Shown here: positions 48,317-64,000 of the stretch, piece by piece
Position numbering within the stretch: the first letter of the stretch is position 1
How the letters are laid out: the number at the start of each line of letters is the position of its first letter
Source: Hyphomicrobium sp.
Lineage (GTDB): Bacteria > Pseudomonadota > Alphaproteobacteria > Rhizobiales > Hyphomicrobiaceae
NCBI GenBank assembly: GCA_017512425.1
Contig: JAFWGI010000016.1
Location: 1-64,000 of the forward strand
Length of the DNA stretch: 64,000 nt
Direction: 5' to 3'
Made by a program: the position numbers and the translations under genes
Notes under the pieces: model-generated
Database searches by the model: none
Seen by the model: the letters and a program-made list of their open reading frames with translations, nothing else
Told to the model about the DNA's origin: nothing

Positions 48317-49510
48317 TTAGTCCGTCGCAGACGGCGCTGCCTTAGAGACGGCTGAGATATCCCAGATGCGCGCCGTCTTGTCGTATGACGCGGTTAGCAC
48401 CTGTTGCCCGCTAGGGCTGAACGCCGCGCCATCGACTTCCTTGAAATGACCGCGCAAGGTTGCAAGCGCTTGCCCAGTCGCAGCATCCCAGACAACCGCC
48501 GTCTTGTCGTGCGATGCCGTGACGATGCGTTTGCCGTCGGCACTGAACATGACACGCGGGATCAACCGCTTGTGTTGCCCTGCCAAGGTTGCGATCAGCG
48601 CGCCACTCGCAACGTCCCAGACTTTGGCCGTCTTGTCGCTGGAGGTCGTGACTATCCTCTTGCTGTCTGGACTAAAGGCGACGCGCAAAGCGGCTCTCTC
48701 GTGGCCAGCGGCCGTCAGCACTTCCTTGCCATCGACCGCCGACCAAACCTTGGCCGTCTTGTCACTAGACGATGTCGCAATGAGCCGTCCGTCTGGACTG
48801 AAGGCAACGCTTGCGACGAGCCCATCGTGTCCCGCGAGCGTATAGAGCGCCGCGCCTGTGCGCGCATTCCAAACGCGAGCGGTCGTATCGCTCGACGACG
48901 TTACGATTTTGCTGCTGTCCGGACTGAAGTCGAAGCCCGACAGCCATTCGGTATGGCCTTTGAGCTGCGCCACTTCCGCTCCTGTCTTGACGTCGAAGAG
49001 CTTCGCGGTTGCGTCGCGCGATGCGGTCGCGACAATTGAATCATCCGGGCTAAAGCCGATCTGTTCGATCATTTCGCCATGACCTGAGAGCGTGAATAAA
49101 ACGCTGCCTGCCTCGACATCCCAAATCCGAGCAGATCCGCTCCGGCAAGCCGTTACGGCTTTCTTGCCATCGTGGCTGAACGCCGCCGAACGCACCGCTT
49201 CGTCATGGCCGGACAACGTTTTCATGAGCGCGCCAGATTTTGCGTCCCAGATTTTGGCTGTCTTGTCGCTCGACGCCGTGATTACGCGTGTACCGTCGGC
49301 ACTGTAACTAGCACCCCAAAGATCGGCGGAATGCCCTGCAAGTTCGATGTATGGCGGGGAAGCTGGCTCCGGCGATGCCTGCGTCGAACTGGGTGGTGCT
49401 ACACCCGCATCACCCGCGAACGCTACAGCGCTGAACACGAGCTTGAAAGCAATCGTAGCAAGGCCTGTGGTCAAAACCCTCTGCTGTCGCGACGAAGTAC
49501 GATGCATCAT
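48317..49510 (-). CDS. Exported WD40-repeat beta-propeller protein
   Basis: A 397-residue protein with a signal peptide (hydrophobic to about residue 32, ending AFAG) and eight WD40 blades of about 42 residues, each with GH...SSDKTAKIWD-like ends. At DNA level this appears as an approximately 126-base periodicity with repeated 'gccgtcttgtcg' words. Such propellers are usually scaffolds. It is the last gene of the minus-strand run that includes two PQQ-associated genes, so it may serve periplasmic methanol oxidation. No catalytic motif is seen. Confidence 0.85.
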   Translation of the reverse strand: MMHRTSSRQQRVLTTGLATIAFKLVFSAVAFAGDAGVAPPSSTQASPEPASPPYIELAGHSADLWGASYSADGTRVITASSDKTAKIWDAKSGALMKTLSGHDEAVRSAAFSHDGKKAVTACRSGSARIWDVEAGSVLFTLSGHGEMIEQIGFSPDDSIVATASRDATAKLFDVKTGAEVAQLKGHTEWLSGFDFSPDSSKIVTSSSDTTARVWNARTGAALYTLAGHDGLVASVAFSPDGRLIATSSSDKTAKVWSAVDGKEVLTAAGHERAALRVAFSPDSKRIVTTSSDKTAKVWDVASGALIATLAGQHKRLIPRVMFSADGKRIVTASHDKTAVVWDAATGQALATLRGHFKEVDGAAFSPSGQQVLTASYDKTARIWDISAVSKAAPSATD

Positions 49511-50037: not shown

Positions 50038-51018
50038 TTAAGGCTTCATGACGACGCCCCACGGCAAACGTCCAACCGTGATCGATTTTTCCGGCTTCTG
50101 CGTGGCGACGTCGATGACGGTCATATCGTTCGTCAAACCGTTGACGGTGTAGATTTTCTCTCCCGCTTCATCGATCGCGAGATGCCACGGCCGCTGTCCC
50201 ACCAGGATGTAATTTTTTACCTCATACGTCGCCGTATCAACGACAGCTATGCGGTTGGCCGTGCTCAACGCCACGAACGCGAGCTTGCCGTCCTTGGAAA
50301 ACTGGACGCCCATCGGCTGAATAAGCTCTGGGCGAATGCCCGGTATCTCGAACCCAAACTTCTTGATGACTTTTCTGGTCGCCTTATCGATCACTGCAAC
50401 CGTGCCGCCGATTTCTGCAGTTACCCAAACGTGCTTGTCGTCGCGTGTAAAGCGGGCGACGCGTGGACGGACATCGACGAGAATGTTGGCAACAACCTTC
50501 AATGTCGCATTGTCGATGATGTGCGCCATGCTGGTTTGTTCTGACGTGGCGACGGTGATCGTGTTGTCCGCACTAACCGCCATGCCTTCCGGCTCGACAC
50601 CAACGGGTATTTCGGCAAGAATTTTGCCGTCGCCACGCTGCAGCACGGTCACCATGCCATCGTCTTCATTCGCAACGTAGATCCGATCTCCCGCCGGATC
50701 GATATCGACGAGTTCGGGATCGGGACCAGATTCGAGCGAGCGAACGACTTCGAGTTTTTCGGTATCGATAATATCGATCCGGTTGTCGTCGCCTGCGCAG
50801 ACGATCAACTCTTTAAAGTCTGGCGTAAGCACCATCCCGCGAGGCCGTAGACCTGTCGGAATCGTTTTGACGACTTTCAAAGTCTCGCTATCGATAACGG
50901 TGACGGTATTATCCTTCTCATTGCTGATGAAAAGCGTTCCGGCACTCGCCGGCGTCAATGAAAGCGCGCCAGCGATCAAAAGGCTGCCAACTACCGTTAG
51001 GTTTTCATGCATTTTCAT
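50038..51018 (-). CDS. PQQ-associated YVTN beta-propeller protein (copy 1)
   Basis: A 326-residue exported protein: signal peptide to about residue 26, then YVTN-type propeller repeats such as LFISNEKDNTVTVIDSETLKVV, IPTGLRPRGMVLTPD and RIYVANEDDGMVTVL. Proteins of this type are encoded beside PQQ-dependent alcohol dehydrogenases and are annotated as 'PQQ-dependent catabolism-associated beta-propeller'. Their biochemical role is not known. The gene follows the ABC-type binding protein by 15 bases. A close paralogue lies at 62820. Confidence 0.88.
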   Translation of the reverse strand: MKMHENLTVVGSLLIAGALSLTPASAGTLFISNEKDNTVTVIDSETLKVVKTIPTGLRPRGMVLTPDFKELIVCAGDDNRIDIIDTEKLEVVRSLESGPDPELVDIDPAGDRIYVANEDDGMVTVLQRGDGKILAEIPVGVEPEGMAVSADNTITVATSEQTSMAHIIDNATLKVVANILVDVRPRVARFTRDDKHVWVTAEIGGTVAVIDKATRKVIKKFGFEIPGIRPELIQPMGVQFSKDGKLAFVALSTANRIAVVDTATYEVKNYILVGQRPWHLAIDEAGEKIYTVNGLTNDMTVIDVATQKPEKSITVGRLPWGVVMKP

Positions 51019-51033: not shown

Positions 51034-52299
51034 TCAACTTGAAAGACGGCACTTCGACTCTGATTTGTCGAAGCCCATCGTATCGGTCTGGTTGTGCTGA
51101 TGCAGGAAGCCGTCTTGCGGCGAAATAGAAACGAGCGCGCGCGGGCCTGATAACAATATCGGCTGACGGAGCTGCTGATCCCACGTGCGAAACGTCAAGC
51201 CAACGCCCTTGAAGCCAGCTACTCCGAAGTCCTTCGACAGCATAAAGGCTTTGAGCGTTGCGACGTCAGCAGAGTTCGTCCGCAATACAGCTTCGCCGAA
51301 GATGCGCACGGCAAGCCAGGCATAGTAGTCACGCTCCGTCATCGCGCGTTTGGCCTGCCGCTCGAAGCGGTTCTGCATCTGCGTACCGGCATACTGTTCA
51401 AAGGAGCGGTGCCAGCCGACGGCAACGAGGCCATGCGTGCCGATCACGGGTTTTGGATCGAAGGTGCGAAAAAGCAGATAATCGCCGAACGCTTCCTCCG
51501 CGTCGGTGACGAACAGCACGTCGTATTCCGACGAGGTCTGCGTCAGCAGTGGCATCTGCGTTTGAATTTGCTGATGACCGCTATCTGTGCGGCGCGACCC
51601 TGCATCAAATTTGTAGGTCTTTTCGTCGACGATTTTGTTGCCGAACTTCGCAGCCGCTCGACGCACGGCCGCGGCATACTGCAAGTCCTTCTTTCCCTGG
51701 CCGCTGACCAACAACCAACGCCGCCATTTCTTCCAAGTCATATACTGCGCGAGAGCATCGGCACGCATGGCCCAAGACGGCGGAAGGTGAAAGACATTCT
51801 GGCGGCACTGCTCTTGCCTTAGATCGTCATCACTGTCGCGAATATTCAGGATGATGGCGTCTTTGGCTTCGGGCAAATCCGAAACCGCGAGCAGATCCTC
51901 GTGTTCGAGGTCAGCGATGATCAGCTTTTCATTGTTTTTGAATAGCTCTCGCGCCTTGGCAACGACGTCCGCATCAGCTTCCAGAACAACTTCGGAAATG
52001 TCGTGCTGATGACCGATCAACCGGCCAGTCATATTGTTTTCTTTGATTGCGACGCGCGTGCCTTGCACGCCTTCGTCGGTCAGAACTTTGTCGAGAAGCG
52101 AGAGCGGCACCGGCTCGGGATATTTTTTCCCGAGATAGACGAAATGCGCCTTGAGTGTAGGTGGGGCTGATGGATCGACCGCGGTAGCACTTGCGTCGGC
52201 CCATGCGCGCGGCAAATGATGCACTGGCAGAAGTATTGAAATCAAAGCGACCGCAACAACCCTGCGGCAACAGCTTGTTGCAAACCTCACGAATACCAA
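51034..52299 (-). CDS. PQQ-associated ABC-type substrate-binding protein
   Basis: A 421-residue exported protein with an N-terminal signal (about residues 1-35, ending AWADA) and a periplasmic-binding fold of the branched-chain amino-acid-receptor type: LKAHFVYLGKKYPEPVPLSLLDK, TWKKWRRWLLVSGQGKKD and EYDVLFVTDAEEAFGDYL. This matches the binding-protein family linked to PQQ-dependent catabolism; its ligand is unknown, and no cognate permease is in view. The start is uncertain: TTG at 52299 or GTG at 52290, neither with a good ribosome site. Confidence 0.82.
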   Translation of the reverse strand: MVFVRFATSCCRRVVAVALISILLPVHHLPRAWADASATAVDPSAPPTLKAHFVYLGKKYPEPVPLSLLDKVLTDEGVQGTRVAIKENNMTGRLIGHQHDISEVVLEADADVVAKARELFKNNEKLIIADLEHEDLLAVSDLPEAKDAIILNIRDSDDDLRQEQCRQNVFHLPPSWAMRADALAQYMTWKKWRRWLLVSGQGKKDLQYAAAVRRAAAKFGNKIVDEKTYKFDAGSRRTDSGHQQIQTQMPLLTQTSSEYDVLFVTDAEEAFGDYLLFRTFDPKPVIGTHGLVAVGWHRSFEQYAGTQMQNRFERQAKRAMTERDYYAWLAVRIFGEAVLRTNSADVATLKAFMLSKDFGVAGFKGVGLTFRTWDQQLRQPILLSGPRALVSISPQDGFLHQHNQTDTMGFDKSESKCRLSS

Positions 52300-52382: not shown

Positions 52383-52988
52383 TCAGTGCGCCCAGTTTTT
52401 CTTTTCTTCACGTCCGTTGAACACGGAGCGGATGAACAGAATGAGCTTCCAAAGATGCTCTTCATCCTCGATGATTTCTGCGTACGGCGGCATTGGGCCA
52501 GTCACCGTTTCCTTCGCAATCGGTGCGTAACCCGAAGCTTTCAAGTCCTTCGAGCCAAGCGTGATCAAACGGAACAAGGTATCGTCGTCGCTTCCGTACA
52601 CCCATGTTTCGTTGGTCAGCGGCGGACACATGCCGCCACCACCACCTCCGCCATGGCAGCCGTTGCAGCTATTGCCCATGTAGTACTTCTTGCCCTCGGC
52701 AATATTCTCAGGCGTGAACGGATAAGGGTTTTTAAGTTTTCCTTTTTCTGTCGCTTTGACGCGATCGATGGGCTTCATCTTGTCACCCGAGGCTGGTGCA
52801 GCGGCGGCATCCGCTGGCGCTGCAGCCGGCGCTGCGGCCGCCGGTTCGGCGGGCTTCGCGGCCTCACTCACCGCTTCCGGTTTTGGATCCTCGGCATAAA
52901 CGTGCGGACTCGAAATCGCGCCGAGCGAGATCATGACAGCGGCAGTGATACCGGCAATCCGCGTTTTTCTCAATCCAGTCACTGGCAT
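52383..52988 (-). CDS. Methanol-oxidation c-type cytochrome (XoxG-like)
   Basis: A 201-residue periplasmic cytochrome. Signal peptide to about residue 32, an Ala/Pro-rich linker to about 68, and a class I cytochrome domain with haem motif C108-NG-C111-H112 followed by a run of seven Gly and MCPPL; a Met in GPMPPY is the likely sixth ligand. This matches the methanol-metabolism-related cytochrome family found next to xoxF and should accept electrons from the dehydrogenase. It lies between the XoxJ-like gene and the binding protein. Confidence 0.88.
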   Translation of the reverse strand: MPVTGLRKTRIAGITAAVMISLGAISSPHVYAEDPKPEAVSEAAKPAEPAAAAPAAAPADAAAAPASGDKMKPIDRVKATEKGKLKNPYPFTPENIAEGKKYYMGNSCNGCHGGGGGGGMCPPLTNETWVYGSDDDTLFRLITLGSKDLKASGYAPIAKETVTGPMPPYAEIIEDEEHLWKLILFIRSVFNGREEKKNWAH

Positions 52989-53104: not shown

Positions 53105-54940
53105 TCACTGACTACTCCCTGCTTGATCCAGAAGTTTCAGAAGGCTGACGACGGCAGTATTGCCATTCTGAACAGCGAGGTCAGAGGCGGTTTTCCCTTC
53201 AGGGTTCTTAAAATTTCGGTTCGCGCCGGCGTCCGCGAGAAGCCCAACGATCGGGGCGTTGTTGTGCGCCGCGGCGAGCAGCAGCGCCGATAATCCGGAG
53301 CCACTGACGGCATTAACATTCGCACCTTTCGCCAGCAGCGCCCGCGCAATGTCGATGGGACCTGGATCTTTCGGGTTGAACTTCTCGACGCGAGATACGC
53401 CGGCGCCGAGCGTCAGGCGGTTCCCTTCCTTGCCCGACACCAACATCAATGGTGTCAGCTTTGCCGGTCCAACGGCAGTCTCCAGAGGAGCGCCTGCTTC
53501 GATCAACGCCATCGCTGATTTGAACTGATCTTCGATGATCGCAATTGCTAGCGGCGTGTATCCAGCCTGGTTCGGAACATCTAGCTTTGCGCCCCCCGCA
53601 GCGAGCGCCATGATGGTCTCGGGGTGATTTCGCATAACGGCGTGATGCAACGCTGTCATCCCGTCACTATCTGTTGCGTTGACGTCGGCTTTCAAAGCCA
53701 GCAGCTCCGTGACGATTTTGTCGTCGCGGTTGCGCGCTGCGTTTTGCAGAACCGCGTATCCTTGATTATCGCGGCCGTTGATATCGGCGCCTTTGTCGAC
53801 CAGAAAACGCACGCGCTCGGCATCGGACGCAAGCACGGCATTTGCCAGTTCTAGATTGAGATCGGCGCCATCCTGCAACCAGGCCTCAAGACGTTGACGC
53901 GTAACCATTTGATCCGGTGATTTTGTTGTCGCTGGCGTATGCTCGTCCGGCGCCGTGTAGATCGGCTTCGTGTAAATACCGTGCTGCGGAAGATTGCCTT
54001 GCACGACGCACTTGCTGCACTCAACCAATGGCACGCCGAATTCGCGCAAGATCTTTTCGACGTCGGCGCGACGCGCATCGAGCGCCAGATCAAACTTGTA
54101 TTTTAATACCCAGTCGATTTTTCTAAGACCGATCGCAAGTTCGAACTCTTGCGGAATTTCATCTTCCCAAAGATTCACGGGTTGGACGATCAATGGATCG
54201 CCGCGCTCTTTCAACCAACCCGCAAACGGTCCCCAAACACCTGCGACGTCCAGCTTGCCATCGAGGACATGCTTGACCTGCTGCCACGGCTGATTGTCCG
54301 GGTTGAGGTCTGAGTTGTGGCTGACGACGTGCAGCGACACGTTCGAAATGATCCCGCGGCGGGTCAAAGCGGTGCGCAGGCCAGACGTTTGAAAAACGCC
54401 GATTTTGACGTCGCGCAGCTTAGGATCATCAAGGCTTTTGATATCCAGCCCTTTATCGGAGCGGTAAGCCAAAACGTATGTCGTTTTGTAAATCGGGTTG
54501 GTGGTTATGATGCCGCCGGCGAAGCCTGAAGCCGGCATATCGAGAAGAATATCGCAATCGTTGGTGTCGAACGTCTGCCGCGTGATTCCGCGCATCAGAT
54601 AAGGACGCCAGAAATAATTGACCTCCGCGCCCATCTCTCGCGCGATCAGTTCAATGATCTTATTTTGATAACCGGCGCGGTTGATGTCGGACAGCGGAAG
54701 GTTGCCGGGATCGCCGCAAACTCTGAGCGTCGAAACGTTGCGCGCTGCTGCAGCCTTCTTGAGAGCCGTGTGATCGCCGGCCGTCAGGGGTAACTGCGCT
54801 TCAAGGCGCGAAAAGGCGGCACGGAGCTGGTCATTAACAGCTTCTGCAACCGCGGGCGACGCCTGAGCGCAGATAGCACACGAAAGAAGCGCGAACTGAA
54901 AACAGCGCGAGGCCATCGAAAGTTGAATGGAGAAACGCAT
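53105..54940 (-). CDS. XoxJ-like periplasmic binding protein fused to ankyrin repeats
   Basis: A 611-residue exported protein from the ATG at 54940. Signal peptide to about residue 32. Residues about 60-330 are an extracellular solute-binding fold of the quinoprotein-dehydrogenase-associated family: LRVCGDPGNLPLSDINRAGYQNKII, TFDTNDCDILLDMPASGF and TTYVLAYRSDKGLD. From about 370 to the end are six to seven ankyrin repeats (VDKGADINGRDNQGYAVLQNAA and so on). XoxJ proteins are thought to help activate XoxF, and most are only the binding domain; the fused ankyrin part is unusual and may bind the dehydrogenase or cytochrome. It follows xoxF with a 136-base gap. Confidence 0.85.
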   Translation of the reverse strand: MRFSIQLSMASRCFQFALLSCAICAQASPAVAEAVNDQLRAAFSRLEAQLPLTAGDHTALKKAAAARNVSTLRVCGDPGNLPLSDINRAGYQNKIIELIAREMGAEVNYFWRPYLMRGITRQTFDTNDCDILLDMPASGFAGGIITTNPIYKTTYVLAYRSDKGLDIKSLDDPKLRDVKIGVFQTSGLRTALTRRGIISNVSLHVVSHNSDLNPDNQPWQQVKHVLDGKLDVAGVWGPFAGWLKERGDPLIVQPVNLWEDEIPQEFELAIGLRKIDWVLKYKFDLALDARRADVEKILREFGVPLVECSKCVVQGNLPQHGIYTKPIYTAPDEHTPATTKSPDQMVTRQRLEAWLQDGADLNLELANAVLASDAERVRFLVDKGADINGRDNQGYAVLQNAARNRDDKIVTELLALKADVNATDSDGMTALHHAVMRNHPETIMALAAGGAKLDVPNQAGYTPLAIAIIEDQFKSAMALIEAGAPLETAVGPAKLTPLMLVSGKEGNRLTLGAGVSRVEKFNPKDPGPIDIARALLAKGANVNAVSGSGLSALLLAAAHNNAPIVGLLADAGANRNFKNPEGKTASDLAVQNGNTAVVSLLKLLDQAGSSQ

Positions 54941-55076: not shown

Positions 55077-56960
55077 TTAGTCACCGACGCGGAACGTGAA
55101 CAGCGTGCCAGCCTGCGGGATCTTGTCGAGGTTGGCCGCTTTCGTCATAGCCGTCGCACCGATCGCACCGAACTTGTCGTTCAGGTCGAGACCAGCGGTC
55201 ACCGGCACGCCGATCCAGCCGCCGATACCGGACAGGATCGAGACGTACTGCTTACCCTTGATCTTGTACGTGATCGGGTTAGCGATGGAGCCTGAAGCAA
55301 GCTTGCGGCTCCAGAGCACCTTGCCGGTCTTGCGATCGACAGCGCGGAAGTCACCACCAAGCGAGCCATAGAACATCAGGCCACCGTCGGTTACGAGCGT
55401 GCCACCCCAGTTCGGATACGGATCCGGGATTTCCCACTCGGTCTTGCCGCTCAGCACGTCGAACTTCTTGATCTTGCCCGTTGTGCCTGGCTTTTCCGGG
55501 AACATGTAGACGTTCGCGAACACGTAGACCGTACCCTGCTGTGTGTGGCTGCGTTCTTGCGGCTCCAGCTCCATGCACCAGTTGTTGGTCGGGCAGTACG
55601 CGAGGTTCGGTTCCTTCGGGTCGATCGAGCACGGCTGCTGGTCCTTGCCACCCATTGCCGACGGGCAGGCAGCAACGTTGCGGCCGAGTTCCAGCGGCGA
55701 GTGCTTCTGAACCTTCACAGGACGTCCGGTCTTCATGTCGACCTTTTCGGCCCAGTCGGTCGTCACGTACTTATGAGCGCGCAACAGCGTGCCGTCGACG
55801 CGATCGAGGACGTATGCGAAGCCGTTACGGTCGAAGTGCACGAGAGTCTTGCGCTTCTTGCCGTCGACATCCATGTCGACCAGGATGTTTTCGTTGACGC
55901 CGTCATAGTCCCACTGGTCGAACGGGGTCATCTGATAGGCGAATACGGCTTCGCCATTCTCGACCTTGCGTCCGAAGATGGTCATCGACCACTTGTTGTC
56001 GAACTCGCCGGTGTTGCACTCGTCGTGGGTTTTCTTGGCACAGCGATAGCTCGGCGACCACAGACCGGGGTTACCCGTCGCATAGTACACCATCTTCAAA
56101 TCGCTGTCGTATGAGAACCAGCCCCAAGCTGCGCCACCGCCAATTTTGTAGTCTTCGCCGACGTGCGTCTTGATGCCGAGATCCTGGCCAGCTGTGCCGT
56201 AGTGCGGGTTGGCCTTGTTCGTGTCAGCCGTCAGGCAGACATCCTTGTCGGAACCCGTCGAATGACATTTCCAAACTTCTTTGCCATCGGCAATGTTGTA
56301 GGCCGTGACGCGGCCGCGCGCTGCAAACTCATCGCCGCCGAAGCCGACGATGACGAGGTTTTCAGCGATCAACGGAGCGTTGGTGATCGTTTCACCCTTT
56401 TCCGGCCACGCGTGTTTGACAACCCAGACTTCCTTGCCGGTCACGGCGTCGAGTGCGATCACGAAGCCATCGAGCGTCGCGAAGATCACTTTTCCGTCTG
56501 CATATGCCGGACCGCGGTTGACCGTATCGCAGCACGCGCGCGGAACCGCCGACTCGTCACGGTCCGTCTGCTTCACGTAGTTCCAGATTTGCTTCGGATT
56601 GTCGGGATCCGAAAGATCAAGACCCTGAACGATATTGCACTTCGACATTTCGGGGCAGCCCGAAACGAAGAACATCATCGGTTTGCCGGCGACGTCTTCA
56701 ATAACGACGGGCTGGCCTTCATGACCGCGCAATGCGCCTGTCGACTGCGACCACATCATTTGAAGTTTCGACACGTTCGCGGTCGTAATGTCTGCAAGGG
56801 GGCTATGACGCGTCAAATGGTTGTCGCGACCCGGAGCCCCCCATTCGTTGGGATTTGCGGCGCGCTTATTAACCTCGGCATTAGCGAATGCGGGGCTAGC
56901 AAGCCCGAGCACCGCAACTGCGAGGCCGCCCGAAAGGGCCAAAGCCTGTCTAAAATTCAT
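55077..56960 (-). CDS. xoxF: XoxF-type PQQ-dependent methanol dehydrogenase, lanthanide type
   Basis: A 627-residue eight-bladed quinoprotein starting at the ATG at 56960 (MNFRQ), with GGAGAGGAA 5 bases upstream. Signal peptide to about residue 26. The adjacent-cysteine disulphide that lies over PQQ is Cys143-Cys144 (RACCDTV). Likely metal ligands are Glu211, Asn297 (ATGNPG) and Asp351, with Asp353 two residues further (WDYDGVNE); this extra Asp separates lanthanide-dependent XoxF from calcium-dependent MxaF, which has Ala there. It oxidises methanol, and often formaldehyde, in the periplasm. An insert near 305-320 adds two Cys (RCAKKTHDEC). Confidence 0.95.
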   Translation of the reverse strand: MNFRQALALSGGLAVAVLGLASPAFANAEVNKRAANPNEWGAPGRDNHLTRHSPLADITTANVSKLQMMWSQSTGALRGHEGQPVVIEDVAGKPMMFFVSGCPEMSKCNIVQGLDLSDPDNPKQIWNYVKQTDRDESAVPRACCDTVNRGPAYADGKVIFATLDGFVIALDAVTGKEVWVVKHAWPEKGETITNAPLIAENLVIVGFGGDEFAARGRVTAYNIADGKEVWKCHSTGSDKDVCLTADTNKANPHYGTAGQDLGIKTHVGEDYKIGGGAAWGWFSYDSDLKMVYYATGNPGLWSPSYRCAKKTHDECNTGEFDNKWSMTIFGRKVENGEAVFAYQMTPFDQWDYDGVNENILVDMDVDGKKRKTLVHFDRNGFAYVLDRVDGTLLRAHKYVTTDWAEKVDMKTGRPVKVQKHSPLELGRNVAACPSAMGGKDQQPCSIDPKEPNLAYCPTNNWCMELEPQERSHTQQGTVYVFANVYMFPEKPGTTGKIKKFDVLSGKTEWEIPDPYPNWGGTLVTDGGLMFYGSLGGDFRAVDRKTGKVLWSRKLASGSIANPITYKIKGKQYVSILSGIGGWIGVPVTAGLDLNDKFGAIGATAMTKAANLDKIPQAGTLFTFRVGD

Positions 56961-57525
56961 GTGCTTCCTCTCCATTTTGGATCGGCGTCGCGAGCGTTGA
57001 CCGCCCGTTCCAGCCGCAAGACCACGTCGGCACTTCCGATTGCAAAAAAGCCGGAACTGCCGATCTTTCGAATACGCAGATGCCTGCAGCGTCCGCGTTC
57101 CGGGCCGACAAAACCGCTCAGTAGCCCTTCGATATGAGACTAATTGGCAGTGTCATCGCGCCGCACTTTCGATTGACACGCGCATCGGCGCGACGGGACT
57201 CGTTCCCTTTGTCTGTGGGACGCCATCCCCTTCACTAATTCTTGAAATCGCACGCCTGCGGATGAATTAGGGAACGGGAATTTTGGAAGCGATTGGAGCT
57301 TGGCGTTGCGCACCTAAGCAATCGGGCAGCGCAAAAAAAATAACGCCGGGCGCTGAAAGAACCAATGGAGGAGGCTGTGTCAGTGCCCGGCGTCAAGGCG
57401 CAAGCATTCTTCGTGTAAGCGGCGAAAATGGGCTGCGCGATGGGATGACTTCCCTATTTATGGCAACAGCAAATCCCTCACCGCATTGTGACTGTTGCGT
57501 GAGGTAAAGCAGCCGCGTTTGACGA
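56961..57525. other. 565-base region upstream of xoxF with dyads
   Basis: The promoter region of xoxF (minus strand) and the 3' region of the response-regulator gene. It holds the intrinsic terminator at 57333-57395 and, nearer xoxF, an inverted repeat CTAATTC (57235-57241) / GAATTAG (57264-57270), with CGTTCCC (57201-57207) / GGGAACG (57270-57276) around it. These could bind the MoxX-like regulator. No clear -35/-10 pair for xoxF was seen, and no gene. Confidence 0.5.
57333..57395 (-). terminator. Intrinsic terminator downstream of the moxX-like gene
   Basis: Arms at 57380-57395 and 57341-57356 are 16-base inverted repeats with two mismatches (core GCCCGGCG/CGCCGGGC), separated by 23 bases. 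Read on the minus strand, the hairpin is followed directly by eight T (57340-57333). This lies 131 bases after the response-regulator stop and insulates xoxF from the two-component operon. Confidence 0.8.
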
Positions 57526-58143
57526 CTAACGATTGCGACTTTCGAGTGAGACGCGGATCAAATCCGTCGTCCTTTCGAGACCTAGTTTGGTCTTCAGACG
57601 GCTGCATGAGTTCGCAACTGTCTTGTATGCAATGCCAAATGTCGCCGCGATCTGACTGAGGCTCTTGCCTTCCCCAAGCAGCCGCAGGATTTCGATTTCG
57701 CGGTTTGAAAGTTTGGAAAACGGATCGTCGGCCGCTGCAGGCGAGAACGCCAAATCACGCGCCAGATTGCGATCGAGATAGCGTTCGCCCGCAGCAACGC
57801 GTTTGACGGCAACAAGCAACTCATCGAGCGGTGCGCTTTTGCTGACGTAACCCATCGCGCCAGCGCGGATTGCCCTCAAAGCGTAGCTCTGCTCAGAGTG
57901 CATCGTGAACATGACGATACGCGCCGTCTTCGATTCATTTCGCAAGCGCTGCAGAAGCTCGATGCCGCTGCTGCCTTCAAGATTGACGTCCAGGATCGTG
58001 ACATGCGGGCTGTGCTTGCGAAACTGCGCAAGAGCATCAGCCGCCGTCGTTGCCTCCAAGAACTCAATGCCGGGAATAGCGCTGAGCAGACGACGAACGC
58101 CCTCTCTCAGCACCGCATGGTCATCGACGATCAAAACCTTCAT
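57526..58143 (-). CDS. LuxR/NarL-type response regulator (MoxX-like)
   Basis: A 205-residue regulator: receiver domain at 1-115 with acidic pocket Asp7-Asp8 and phosphoacceptor Asp52 (TILDVNLEG), Thr/Ser switch in VMFTMHSE, Lys in GYVSKSAP; LuxR-type helix-turn-helix at about 140-200 (LSNREIEILRLLGEGKSLSQIA). Its start overlaps the stop of the kinase gene by 4 bases. The kinase's MoxY-type sensor and the adjacent xoxF make it likely to control methanol dehydrogenase genes, as MoxYX does in Paracoccus. Confidence 0.88.
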   Translation of the reverse strand: MKVLIVDDHAVLREGVRRLLSAIPGIEFLEATTAADALAQFRKHSPHVTILDVNLEGSSGIELLQRLRNESKTARIVMFTMHSEQSYALRAIRAGAMGYVSKSAPLDELLVAVKRVAAGERYLDRNLARDLAFSPAAADDPFSKLSNREIEILRLLGEGKSLSQIAATFGIAYKTVANSCSRLKTKLGLERTTDLIRVSLESRNR

Positions 58144-59528
58144 GAAACTGCCGCCTCAATAAATTCATTCTTGCGTTTGGCGCGTTCCGGTTCATTCGTT
58201 TTTGGCAACGATGCCTTAACGACCACGCCGGACTTATCGTGCGCCATCTCGACAGTCAGCATGCCGCCGAGCTTCGTTGCTCGCTCCTTCATGCCAAGAA
58301 TTCCGAAGCCGCCCTCTGTGATCGGACACTTAAGGCCGCCCCCATTGTCGCGCACTTCCAACGCCACGCATTCGCTCGCCTCGCTGACCGTTATTGCGAT
58401 CTTCCGCGGCGTGCCGTGCTTCAGAGAATTGCTGACGGCCTCGCGAACGATCGACCCAACGGCGTCGTCGATCTTAGCGCCCCAAGAATCGCGGTTTACG
58501 TCTGCCTCGATATGCACCGATGGATGCCGCGCGCCCCAGAACGCCACCAGATCGTCAATCGAATCTTTCAATGACAACGCGTGCAGCGTAGACGGGCGCA
58601 AATCGCCGAGAATGCCTTTGACGTTTTCTTTCAGATCGTCGATCGCCGATTGGATCGCATTGGCATGGCCGACAATTGCCTCATCGTCTGCGCGTTCGGC
58701 GATGCGCCGGATACTCATGGCATCGACGTCGACACAGAACAGCAAGGGGCTGATTTCGTCATGCAGGTTGCGCGCAAGTTCGATACGCTCTTCCTCTTGG
58801 ATCGTCTCGGCATGCGCCAGAAGTTGCTTGTTGGAGGATTCAGCGCTCGCAAGGCGCCCAGCCATCTGATTGAACCCGCGCGCAAGCTCGACGAGTTCTT
58901 GTGCACCATGCTCACTGATGCGCGGCGTATAATTTCCGGTTCCGATTTGATGAAACGCCGACGTCAACAGCCGCAATGGCTTCAACGCGCGGCCCAGGAT
59001 GTACAGGGTGACGGCGACGCCAGACGCGCAAAAGAACGCAAGGATCTTGGCAAAGAGCTGGATGTCGCTCCACGCCTCTCCGATTTCGTTGCCGGCGTCC
59101 GTTTGCAGCGCAAATTTACCGAAACCGTCAAACACGTCAGGCAATGGCAGCACGACGGGCTTTGAATCGTAACGGAGAAGATTTTCGAACCACGCCGGTG
59201 CTTCGCTTTCGTCGGCGCCGATTTTTGACTGGACGTTGGTCTGCCCATTTGGCTCAATGATGAAGGCCTTGAGATGCCGATCGCCGTCGAAATCCGCGAC
59301 AAGGAGTTCGAGACGGCGGCGCGGATTGACGACTTCTTCAACATCATCGACCGCGTTGTGCGCGATGCGCGAGCCGACACCGATGGCGGCGACCATCTCC
59401 GTCTCGATTTTATTCAGCGCATGACGATAGGTAAGCCACGCCGCAAGCAGCAGCGTGCCAAGCAAGACAATGGCAATCGTGCCGAGCAACTGGAATCGAA
59501 GCGACATCGCGAGTTTGAGCTTCTGCAT
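58140..59528 (-). CDS. MoxY-like sensor histidine kinase
   Basis: A membrane kinase of 462 residues from the ATG at 59528; an ATG at 59606 would add 26 residues and cannot be excluded. Two membrane helices (about 12-32 and 150-170) flank a periplasmic sensor of the LapD/MoxY N-terminal type (TYRHALNKIETEM, VNPRRRLELLVADFDGDRHLKAFI). A HAMP segment leads to a NarX-type HisKA_3 core with the phospho-His in ELARNLHDEISPLL, and the ATPase lobe has VREAVSNSLKHG and GFGILGMKERA. It probably senses an alcohol-oxidation or envelope signal and phosphorylates the regulator encoded next to it. Confidence 0.85.
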   Translation of the reverse strand: MQKLKLAMSLRFQLLGTIAIVLLGTLLLAAWLTYRHALNKIETEMVAAIGVGSRIAHNAVDDVEEVVNPRRRLELLVADFDGDRHLKAFIIEPNGQTNVQSKIGADESEAPAWFENLLRYDSKPVVLPLPDVFDGFGKFALQTDAGNEIGEAWSDIQLFAKILAFFCASGVAVTLYILGRALKPLRLLTSAFHQIGTGNYTPRISEHGAQELVELARGFNQMAGRLASAESSNKQLLAHAETIQEEERIELARNLHDEISPLLFCVDVDAMSIRRIAERADDEAIVGHANAIQSAIDDLKENVKGILGDLRPSTLHALSLKDSIDDLVAFWGARHPSVHIEADVNRDSWGAKIDDAVGSIVREAVSNSLKHGTPRKIAITVSEASECVALEVRDNGGGLKCPITEGGFGILGMKERATKLGGMLTVEMAHDKSGVVVKASLPKTNEPERAKRKNEFIEAAVS

Positions 59529-59627
59529 AACCCAAGACGTTATAACATTCCGGTGTAAGGAAGACAGGAATTCGTTTCGGGACTTCTTCCCGATCAATGT
59601 ATTCATCCCGATTGGGGCCGGGAATGA

Positions 59628-60590: not shown

Positions 60591-60674
60591 TTTTTATTCG
60601 TTCCGTGTTCGACTTTTCAGGAGCGTTTCTTAGCCAGATCACGATGAAACCCAACATCACTTTTGAGAGAGAGC

Positions 60675-61496
60675 ATGCGAATGAAAAATATGCTGCGCAT
60701 TCTCGGAGCTGCACTTGGCTTGATCCTCTCGCCGCCGCTCACGGCTCAAGCAGCCGACGCAGACGCCTGGCCTGATATCCGCAAACAACTCTATGACGAA
60801 CGCGCCGTCGCATCGGCGGCAACATCCGACCTCGTACTCTATGCACCTAATCAAGCCGCAGATGGTGCGCTTGTGCCTGTGTCGGTCCACATGCCCGCCA
60901 GCATCGCGAAACAAGCAAAGCAACTGACACTGATAATCGACCGCAATCCTGCACCGATTGCAGCATCCGTCACGTTCGGGCCCGTTTGGCAACGCGATGA
61001 CGATATCGGCGATCGAATTTTCGCGACGCGCGTACGCGTCGACAGCTTTTCCGTGATGCGAGCAGTATTGGAAACCACCGATGGCCGCCTGCTTATGTCG
61101 CACAAATTCGTTGCCGGAGCTGGCGGTTGCTCCGCACTGCCGTCAAAGGATATTGCCCAAGCTCTCGCCGATCTGGGTAAAGTGAAACTGAAGACTTCCA
61201 GCAACACGATCCGTGGCGGTCGCTGGCGTGAAGGCCTCGCTATGATCCGCCATCCCAATTTTACGGGGATGCAACTCGATCCGAAGTCGGGTGCATACAC
61301 GCCAGCGCGGTACGTCAGTAAAATCGAGGTGACAGATGGCGAGCAACAGATTTTTATGGTCGAAGCCAACATCTCATTGTCGGAAGACCCAAACCTGCGT
61401 TTCACCTATCCGTCTGACTCACATCGCCTCGAACTCAAGGCGATCGATAGCGATGGCGTGCAAATCTCTGGTTCGTCGCTCGGACCGCCGTCCTAG
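60675..61496 (+). CDS. Quinoprotein-dehydrogenase-associated SoxYZ-like carrier protein
   Basis: A 273-residue exported protein (signal peptide to about residue 27, ending AQAA). The N-terminal part is SoxY-like, ending in AGAGGCS with Cys152 as the likely swinging-arm residue; the C-terminal part is SoxZ-like (MIRHPNFTGMQLDP, YVSKIEVTDGEQQIFMVEANIS). Fused SoxYZ proteins of this type are encoded with PQQ dehydrogenases. In sulfur oxidation SoxYZ carries intermediates on Cys; what is carried here is unknown. The ATG at 60675 has a GAGAGAG site; upstream TTG is less likely. Confidence 0.88.
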   Translation: MRMKNMLRILGAALGLILSPPLTAQAADADAWPDIRKQLYDERAVASAATSDLVLYAPNQAADGALVPVSVHMPASIAKQAKQLTLIIDRNPAPIAASVTFGPVWQRDDDIGDRIFATRVRVDSFSVMRAVLETTDGRLLMSHKFVAGAGGCSALPSKDIAQALADLGKVKLKTSSNTIRGGRWREGLAMIRHPNFTGMQLDPKSGAYTPARYVSKIEVTDGEQQIFMVEANISLSEDPNLRFTYPSDSHRLELKAIDSDGVQISGSSLGPPS

Positions 61497-62198: not shown

Positions 62199-62684
62199 TT
62201 ACTTGCCAGCCTTTTCGGCCAATGCCTCAAGGCCGGACTTGAAAATGCCTGCGATCACGCCCTTGGCTTCGGTATCCGGTTTGCCTTTGGCGGCAAAGTT
62301 CGAACTCCAAACGACGATCGATGTGCCAGGCTCATCGGCGTCTGGTTTCGCTGAGAACGACGCGAAGTAATCTTTGACCGGCAACGGGCTTTCGATGATC
62401 TGATAGGTGTATCCGGTGGGGCTGGTCCCTGTCAGCTTTTCCTTGATCTGGCCACCGTCTTTCAATGTCAGCGTGCGTAACTTGGCATCGCCTTCGGAAC
62501 TCTCTTCGCAATTCGCAACCGCTGGGTGCCAGTCCTTGATCGCGCAGAACGCGCCGAATTTGGCCCATACGTCGGCGTCGCTAGCTTTGACCTTCGCAAC
62601 TTCGCGCACTGATAAACCGGCGGCCGCAAAGGCAGCACCTGACATCAGTACGATCGCGAAGCCGGCAATAACTATCTTACGCAT
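62199..62684 (-). CDS. SRPBCC/START-like exported protein
   Basis: A 161-residue protein with a signal peptide (to about residue 20, ending AFAA) and a single SRPBCC-type lipid or polyketide-binding fold: VREVAKVKASDADVWAKFGAFCAIKDWHPAV, ending with the long C-terminal helix IFKSGLEALAEKAG. Members bind hydrophobic ligands; the ligand is unknown. It lies downstream of the second beta-propeller gene in the same direction. Confidence 0.82.
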   Translation of the reverse strand: MRKIVIAGFAIVLMSGAAFAAAGLSVREVAKVKASDADVWAKFGAFCAIKDWHPAVANCEESSEGDAKLRTLTLKDGGQIKEKLTGTSPTGYTYQIIESPLPVKDYFASFSAKPDADEPGTSIVVWSSNFAAKGKPDTEAKGVIAGIFKSGLEALAEKAGK

Positions 62685-62819: not shown

Positions 62820-63794
62820 TCACGGCATCACCGCAACGCCCCACGGCAGCCGGCCTACCGGCACTGATTTGATCGGTTTCTCAGTGGCAACGTCGATGAT
62901 CGTCATGTCGTTCGTAAGACCATTGGCGACATAGAGCGTCTTGCCATCGGGATGAATTGCCAAATGCCACGGCCTTTGTCCGAGGATGATGTAGCGGATG
63001 ACGGCATACGTTTCAGTGTCGACGACCGCGACGCGATTGGCGTGGCTGAGCGCAATAAAGGCCCGTTTGCCGTCGAGCGAGAACTGCACGCCAATGGGCT
63101 GAATCAGATCAGCGTCGACTCCCGGAATTTCAAATCCAAACTTCTTGTCGATTTTAAAAGTCTCGGGGTTGATGACCGACACGGTCCCGCCGATTTCCGA
63201 CGTCACCCAGACGTGCTTGCCATCGCGCGTCCATTCAGCAACGCGCGGCCGCGTATCAACCAGGACATTGGCGATAACTTTATGTGCGGCATTGTCGATG
63301 AAGTGCGCCATGCTGGTCGCTTCGGACGTTGCAACAGTGAGCTTGTTGTCAGGACTAACGCCCATACCCTCAGGCTCAATACCGACATCGAGTTGCGCGA
63401 CCGTCGTACCGTCTTCGAAATTGACGATTGAGACCATCGCATCGTCCTCGTTGGCGACGTAAATGAACTTGCCGTCTTTGGAGATGTCGAGCAGTTCAGG
63501 ATCGGGGCCTGACGCAAGCGTGCGCACGACCTCGAGCTTCTCGGTATCGACGACGTCCAGACGATTGTCGTCGCCTATGCACACGACGAGAAATTTGTGA
63601 TCTGGCGTCAGGCGAATGCCGCGCGGCCTAAGACCTGTCGGGATAACCTTTTTGACAGCGAGCGTATCGCCGTCCAGGACTGTGATTGTATTGTCTTTTT
63701 CGTTACTGACAAAAACGGTGGTCGCCGAGGCTTGGTGCGCGCTTGCAAGAACAAATGTCATTGCAGCCAAGCACCTGAAATTTCTCCACTTCAA
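62820..63794 (-). CDS. PQQ-associated YVTN beta-propeller protein (copy 2)
   Basis: A 324-residue exported protein with a signal peptide (to about residue 24) and the same YVTN repeats as the gene at 50038: VFVSNEKDNTITVLDGDTLAV, IPTGLRPRGIRLTPD and IYVANEDDAMVSIV, ending VGRLPWGVAVMP. By eye the two proteins are alike along their whole length, at roughly two thirds identity, so they arose by duplication. It follows the partial ankyrin gene at the window edge. Confidence 0.88.
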   Translation of the reverse strand: MKWRNFRCLAAMTFVLASAHQASATTVFVSNEKDNTITVLDGDTLAVKKVIPTGLRPRGIRLTPDHKFLVVCIGDDNRLDVVDTEKLEVVRTLASGPDPELLDISKDGKFIYVANEDDAMVSIVNFEDGTTVAQLDVGIEPEGMGVSPDNKLTVATSEATSMAHFIDNAAHKVIANVLVDTRPRVAEWTRDGKHVWVTSEIGGTVSVINPETFKIDKKFGFEIPGVDADLIQPIGVQFSLDGKRAFIALSHANRVAVVDTETYAVIRYIILGQRPWHLAIHPDGKTLYVANGLTNDMTIIDVATEKPIKSVPVGRLPWGVAVMP

Positions 63795-63858: not shown

Positions 63859-64000
63859 TCAATTACCGGTCGACGGTACTGTGCCGGCCTTCGGATTACT
63901 GGCAGCTGACGTCAGGAATTTTAGCGTTCCTATGGCCGTTTCGTTGCCTGCGCGCTCGGCGATTTGCAACGCCGTCAGCCCTTCATTTGAGGTCAACGCC
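63859..64000 (-). CDS. C-terminal end of an ankyrin-repeat protein (5' end beyond window)
   Basis: The minus strand is open from the window edge to a TGA at 63859-63861, giving 46 codons. The opening residues (NEGLTALQIAERAGNETAIGTLKFL) are one ankyrin repeat, followed by a Ser/Pro/Gly tail. It is therefore the end of a second ankyrin protein immediately upstream of a beta-propeller gene; it could be another XoxJ-ankyrin fusion or a stand-alone ankyrin protein. Confidence 0.6.
   Translation of the reverse strand, partial: ALTSNEGLTALQIAERAGNETAIGTLKFLTSAASNPKAGTVPSTGN

Follow-up and report, generated by a model that had tools for sequence, protein, structure and literature searches.

A XoxJ-type binding protein fused to ankyrin repeats adjoins XoxF1-type lanthanide methanol dehydrogenase genes in Hyphomicrobium sp. 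and other genomes

The window, a stretch of 64,000 nucleotides from Hyphomicrobium sp., carries a methanol dehydrogenase operon on its minus strand. The operon begins with a gene for a XoxF1-type lanthanide methanol dehydrogenase (55077–56975), followed 136 bp downstream by the gene for P0001 (53105–54940), a XoxJ-ankyrin fusion of 611 aa. Then come a c-type cytochrome gene in a XoxG-like position (52383–52988), a gene for a TIGR03863 PQQ-associated ABC-type binding protein (51034–52299; 454.3 bits against a cut-off of 413.6) and a gene for a TIGR03866 PQQ-associated beta-propeller (50038–51018; 426.3 bits against 287.3). The cytochrome matched Pfam Cytochrom_C at 35.0 bits, the cut-off being 21.3, and fell far under the cut-off of TIGR03872 (37.3 bits against 147.8). 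At the operon end, a protein that looks exported and has about eight WD40 repeats is encoded (48317–49510, minus strand), and a two-component system, with its histidine kinase at 58140–59606, lies upstream of xoxF1. Between this operon and a second xox cluster, described below, a plus-strand gene (60663–61496) encodes a single secreted-looking protein (277 aa) with both a SoxY and a SoxZ domain, presumably of a kind that occurs near quinoprotein dehydrogenases. Beside the second cluster, a minus-strand gene (62199–62684) encodes an exported-looking Polyketide_cyc2 (SRPBCC) protein, possibly MxaD-like, which was also seen in the surveyed loci L008 and L010. Promoter and terminator scans did no better than shuffles.

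In the sequence-only reading, a XoxJ-type domain and ankyrin repeats share a single signal peptide and are encoded within a methanol dehydrogenase operon, which agrees with the profile matches and with the adjoining XoxF1-type gene. Its coordinates were exact, but the gene is read from the minus strand; stops fill the plus strand across the interval, and a single minus-strand frame encodes the whole protein. P0001 consists of an N-terminal segment that, judged by eye, resembles a signal peptide, a XoxJ/MxaJ-type periplasmic binding domain (residues 72–306; 54023–54727) and, beyond a linker of 50 residues, seven ankyrin repeats (residues about 356–607; 53120–53875). In a profile search, TIGR03871 matched residues 72–306 with 213.7 bits, a narrow pass of the 212.15-bit cut-off, and in the whole-genome profile search the score was 216.2 bits. 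The possibility that P0001 is a MxaJ was rejected, because its score against the MxaJ equivalog TIGR03870 was far below the cut-off (91.4 bits against 258.1). Over residues about 360–605, the Pfam ankyrin families were well above cut-off (Ank_2, 95.9 bits against 27.3). An AlphaFold2 model built from ten fused sequences was modest overall (mean pLDDT 73.5, pTM 0.46). Its ankyrin part showed seven helix pairs between residues 361 and 607 at a pLDDT of about 90, hence our count of seven repeats, where six to seven had been proposed; the fifth repeat has an insert of 20–25 residues. The binding domain was modelled with a pLDDT mostly of 50 to 90, and the linker, residues 307–344, was left disordered, with a pLDDT below 50. 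In a structure search this modest model of the binding domain matched the solved XoxJ 6ONP with a TM-score of 0.87 by target length and chain B of 9ISM, the MxaJ of an entry titled as a MxaF/MxaJ complex, with 0.76; the MxaJ structure 5SV6 was matched as well. P0001 thus departs from the usual single-domain form of XoxJ, the ankyrin part being absent in 56 of 56 stand-alone relatives.

The partner dehydrogenase had as its best PDB match 7o6z, the XoxF1 of Methylacidimicrobium, with 841 bits, and the next match was 4mae, with 530 bits. At residues 355–358 it carries the motif WDYD, whose second Asp, two residues after the catalytic Asp, we take to be the lanthanide-type residue; this Asp was present in 51 of 51 window-like sequences. 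It also has an Asp before the metal-binding Glu, in the motif GGDEF at 213, and this Asp has been called diagnostic for XoxF1 (PMC8546591). The diagnostic Asp was found in 39 of the 51 window-like sequences (the others had 6 Asn, 5 Ser and 1 Ala) and in none of 41 XoxF5-like ones. At this place, Ser or Asn stands in the tandem XoxF1 copies of one family. The Asp also occurs in PQQ dehydrogenases that are not XoxF1 and are about 30% identical, at L013 12788–14695 and L046 6928–9327.

A survey of ankyrin-fused XoxJ proteins, which the sequence-only reading had suggested, brought the fusion to light in 39 fetched loci, which hold 40 fused frames besides P0001 (one being a duplicate), and in addition one frame-shifted copy. 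A scan of named genomes yielded nine related loci, mostly from Hyphomicrobium-type metagenome bins and including two Methyloceanibacter strains, and all nine were ankyrin-fused. TIGR03871 was then searched in overlapping sets of genomes at the level of order, class and phylum, with matches in 90 of 297, 31 of 385 and 40 of 398 genomes, respectively. All sites with frames of at least 530 aa were fetched, together with a hand-picked part of the stand-alone XoxJ proteins (54 regions). Short or repeated cuts (L001–L003, L095–L101, L116 and L117) were left out of the count, as were L083, whose sequence equals that of L012, and L053, a stand-alone XoxJ beside a 45%-identical XoxF5-like gene whose inclusion would leave the picture unchanged. 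The fetched loci then held 97 XoxJ-type frames of countable length, 40 with ankyrin repeats and 57 without in-frame ankyrin repeats. The fused frame at L094 12892–14721 repeats that of L006; it is among the 40 and was omitted from the tree and from the CxxC count below. L016 has its ankyrin part in an overlapping second frame of 330 aa and was therefore counted as a frame-shifted fused copy, and the fragmented copies L106 and L109 were kept out of the fused-frame count. Several long frames were rejected as fusions for want of an ankyrin match, namely L075 (G010:C6, 938 aa), L020 (G373:C43, 537 aa) and L021–L024 (471–507 aa). Plasmid records gave partial relatives only: of 125, not one reached 80% coverage of the query. 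An association confined to the window genome was rejected, fused loci being present in many other genomes. As to the worry, raised with the original reading, that a frameshift or misassembly had joined two genes, an artefact of this kind has a practically negligible chance and can be treated as excluded, because fused orthologues exist in independent assemblies and at a second locus of the same genome. Each of the two domains is complete.

The fused frames kept a single kind of company. An XoxF1-type gene, 57–93% identical to that of the window, directly adjoined 39 of the 40, the remaining one being at a contig edge, and the window pair adjoins likewise. The 57 frames without in-frame ankyrin repeats lay beside XoxF5 or other types (45), in stretches without a XoxF (11) or, in the case of L016, beside XoxF1 (1); no intact stand-alone XoxJ adjoined a XoxF1-type gene among the stand-alone XoxJ proteins fetched. 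The converse search, with the window XoxF against the 297 genomes of the order, found 37 genes of at least 73% identity in 17 genomes. XoxJ-ankyrin was next door to 26 of these (fragmented at L106 and L109, frame-broken at L016 and L087); of the rest, 5 were tandem copies one gene upstream of a pair, 2 were at contig ends and 4 had no XoxJ at all. These 4 lone XoxF1 paralogues, at L102–L105 in four genomes of one family, retain the extra cysteine pairs described below. Outside the order, an XoxF1-type gene was found in 1 of 148 genomes, from another order of the same class; outside the class, it was found in 6 of 150 genomes of one order and in 3 of 274 genomes of that order's class, with one genome shared. 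All nine distinct XoxF1-type genomes from these two other orders and the other class had an adjoining XoxJ-ankyrin gene. Four of the XoxF proteins from outside the order (57–62% identical, with Asn or Ala at the diagnostic place) may, by sequence, be a sister type.

The window genome (3.45 Mb in 16 contigs), when searched with TIGR03871, was found to hold two more XoxJ-type proteins besides P0001. One is a second XoxJ-ankyrin protein of 605 aa, 47% identical to P0001 and encoded at 63859–65676 of the contig, straddling the window end. It adjoins a second XoxF1-type gene whose product is 74% identical to the window XoxF1. This diverged second cluster of XoxF1, XoxJ-ankyrin and propeller (L013 2821–7685; propeller at window 62820–63794) lies a few kb from the first. 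The other protein is a stand-alone XoxJ of 347 aa in a XoxF5 cluster (L014), so that the genome has two XoxF1/XoxJ-ankyrin pairs and one pair of XoxF5 and stand-alone XoxJ. The XoxF5 cluster has two tandem xoxG copies (L014 5465–7308), the second of which, 358 aa, has a long Ala/Pro/Lys/Glu-rich extension followed by a nearly identical cytochrome domain. A further repeat protein with a PQQ dehydrogenase as its neighbour is encoded at L013 12047–14695, where a pentapeptide-repeat protein adjoins a PQQ enzyme of the ethanol-dehydrogenase-like kind, an arrangement like that at pedD/pedE in Pseudomonas.

The neighbours of the fused gene bear on what the ankyrin part might bind. The ankyrin repeats could dock the cytochrome, or another electron carrier, beside XoxF1, which would make the fusion a scaffold for electron transfer. 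A c-type cytochrome gene does follow the fusion in the window and is found, at most 5 kb away and in the same orientation, in 24 of the 37 loci with more than 3 kb of downstream sequence, and in Methylorubrum extorquens the losses of XoxG and XoxJ look similar (PMC7391723). The other 13 loci, including the genome's own second cluster, retain the ankyrin part although no cytochrome gene was recognisable at this distance and orientation. There, a cytochrome from another part of the genome could serve. Unlike the cytochrome, XoxF1 is present wherever the stretch lets it be seen. Docking of the cytochrome is less supported because of these 13 loci, and we think it rather unlikely. The sequence-only reading had offered XoxF or the cytochrome as the docked partner; docking to XoxF is the function with the best support, and the cytochrome half of the suggestion has fared less well.

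Two other sets of neighbours were considered in the same way. It is distinctly unlikely that the ankyrin part binds the TIGR03866 propeller or the TIGR03863 protein to form a larger periplasmic assembly. The propeller gene is present in 36 of the 37 loci and the TIGR03863 gene in 27, but both proteins are also encoded near XoxF5 with a stand-alone XoxJ (L014), and they therefore do not need an ankyrin part. In L009 (2997–6083), from Methyloceanibacter marginalis, the XoxJ-ankyrin frame continues into the TIGR03863 protein to give a frame of 1028 aa, which would fit such an assembly, though the ankyrin end before the join appears frame-shifted relative to L012; the long frame could reflect an error of sequencing or a genuine fusion of three parts, and we make no claim to the latter. 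We consider it very unlikely that the protein is a true solute receptor, for a lanthanide chelate, PQQ or an alcohol, with ankyrin repeats that relay a signal, for example to the kinase encoded at 58140–59606. Such a role would suit the binding-protein fold and the two-component system upstream of xoxF1, a related kinase or regulator being encoded in several other loci; however, known XoxJ and MxaJ proteins act on the dehydrogenase, and the L005 and L007 stretches showed no recognisable kinase gene.

The fusion had been put forward as a new arrangement, and it is not a one-off. In a tree of 97 binding domains, made by a quick method, the 41 fused sequences, including L016, fell on one side of one branch with a SH-aLRT of 99. 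The fusion is an old, conserved arrangement that arose once and is found in two or more classes of the phylum. For eight orthologue pairs, dN/dS was 0.06–0.33 in the ankyrin part and 0.07–0.24 in the binding domain, with dS near saturation in several pairs, and these values indicate that the ankyrin part is under purifying selection. It is somewhat more variable than the binding domain, the mean pairwise identities being 44% and 54%. Distance-matrix correlations with XoxF1 were 0.79 for the ankyrin part and 0.88 for the binding domain; shared ancestry alone would give both, and these mirror-tree correlations do not tell apart the partner of the ankyrin part.

Two cysteine traits go with the fusion. 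Straight after the binding domain, within the linker stretch left disordered by the AlphaFold2 model, lies a CxxC motif (C308-x-x-C311; 54008–54019) that was found in 41 of 41 fused proteins (39 of 39 surveyed sequences, the window and L016) and in 0 of 56 stand-alone ones. The XoxF1-type partners have extra cysteine pairs, both members of which were present in 38 of 51 sequences for 107/113, 48 of 51 for 237/247, 51 of 51 for 312/320 and 27 of 51 for 449/461, the 51 including the window and one duplicate; each pair was absent from all 41 XoxF5-like sequences. These cysteines are gained and lost pairwise, a pattern that disulfides would give. Alignment showed the pairs of the window XoxF1 to be absent from Methylacidimicrobium 7o6z, so the trait is not general to XoxF1. 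The pair C312–C320 lies just after the GNPG loop at 301, the Asn of which we take to be a lanthanide ligand from the numbering of solved enzymes. XoxJ-ankyrin might be imagined as a disulfide-handling chaperone, in which the ankyrin part clamps XoxF1 and the linker CxxC makes, breaks or reshuffles the XoxF1-specific disulfides, above all C312–C320, letting PQQ and the lanthanide enter before the loop locks. We regard the proposal as a long shot. The fusion, the CxxC and the XoxF1 cysteines may all trace to one evolutionary event, which would make theirs a correlated history and not proof of interaction; the association of the fusion with XoxF1 is accordingly not a count of independent events.

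The reading we favour, with moderate confidence, is that the gene encodes the XoxJ of the XoxF1-type lanthanide methanol dehydrogenase, the binding domain holding XoxF1 for maturation and the ankyrin part adding a second grip that gives specificity for XoxF1. From the pairing of the genes, the two-part XoxJ is probably a dedicated assembly partner of XoxF1, and the four lone XoxF1 paralogues without an adjoining XoxJ stand against this. By analogy within the family, XoxJ-ankyrin would be exported, and its binding domain would hold XoxF1 or apo-XoxF1, as MxaJ holds MxaF, to help with cofactor loading and activation. The ankyrin domain, on its flexible CxxC linker, could then take a second grip on the same XoxF1, as a dimer or a folding intermediate, and such a grip might make this XoxJ specific for XoxF1 and not for the XoxF5 of the same genome. 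On methanol with La3+, M. extorquens without xoxJ fares as it does without xoxF1 and xoxF2 (PMC7391723), and PedG, XoxJ and MxaJ are described as binding the partly folded apo-enzyme for insertion of PQQ and metal (PMC12997753); because XoxJ is needed for XoxF and is described as an apo-enzyme binder, we assign the holding of XoxF1 to the binding domain and see in the ankyrin repeats a second contact for the same client. As for the importance of such systems in the cell, three of the four xoxF genes of Methyloceanibacter caenitepidi, which are 70–94% identical to one another, are expressed at relatively high levels on methanol (PMC6417678). These genes would be of the XoxF1 type, judging from related genomes, and a relevance of XoxF1 systems is plausible from their expression.

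Comparison with known systems places the fusion among relatives that each share a part of it. Like the XoxJ of M. extorquens AM1 (6ONP), P0001 has a periplasmic binding-protein fold of the TIGR03871 type and a gene in a xoxF operon; unlike P0001, the AM1 protein is single-domain and its partner is of the XoxF5 type, AM1 XoxF belonging to clade 5 (PMC8546591). MxaJ (5SV6; 9ISM) has the same fold, and its complex with the large subunit of the dehydrogenase has, going by the PDB titles, been solved, but P0001 scores far below the cut-off of the MxaJ equivalog, as noted above. The PedG/ExaJ-type proteins of ethanol dehydrogenase clusters belong to the same superfamily and are likewise encoded next to a PQQ dehydrogenase (PMC12997753), but no ankyrin part is reported for them. 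Elsewhere there are ankyrin proteins whose genes accompany that of a cofactor-bearing redox enzyme and on which this enzyme depends: AnkB of Pseudomonas aeruginosa, which is periplasmic, and Cj1386 of Campylobacter jejuni, which is cytoplasmic (PMC7567364, PMC11442138), are required for catalase activity (PMC7567364). Unlike P0001, these are stand-alone ankyrin proteins for heme catalases and have no binding-protein domain; by analogy, they could offer a precedent for ankyrin proteins as helpers of cofactor enzymes.

The component families are known. In the open-licence literature we found no description of the architecture, of how strictly it is paired with XoxF1 or of the CxxC motif, and none of XoxJ or MxaJ with ankyrin repeats. 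In the same literature, XoxF1-type enzymes have a solved structure, yet no maturation partner was found described for them. A two-handed XoxJ belonging to XoxF1 would explain how XoxF1 and XoxF5 are matured separately in one cell, and it would serve as a genome marker of XoxF1 systems. With the CxxC and the extra disulfides, the assembly of a lanthanide enzyme would gain a redox step, of a kind that we did not find described for other clades in open-licence literature.
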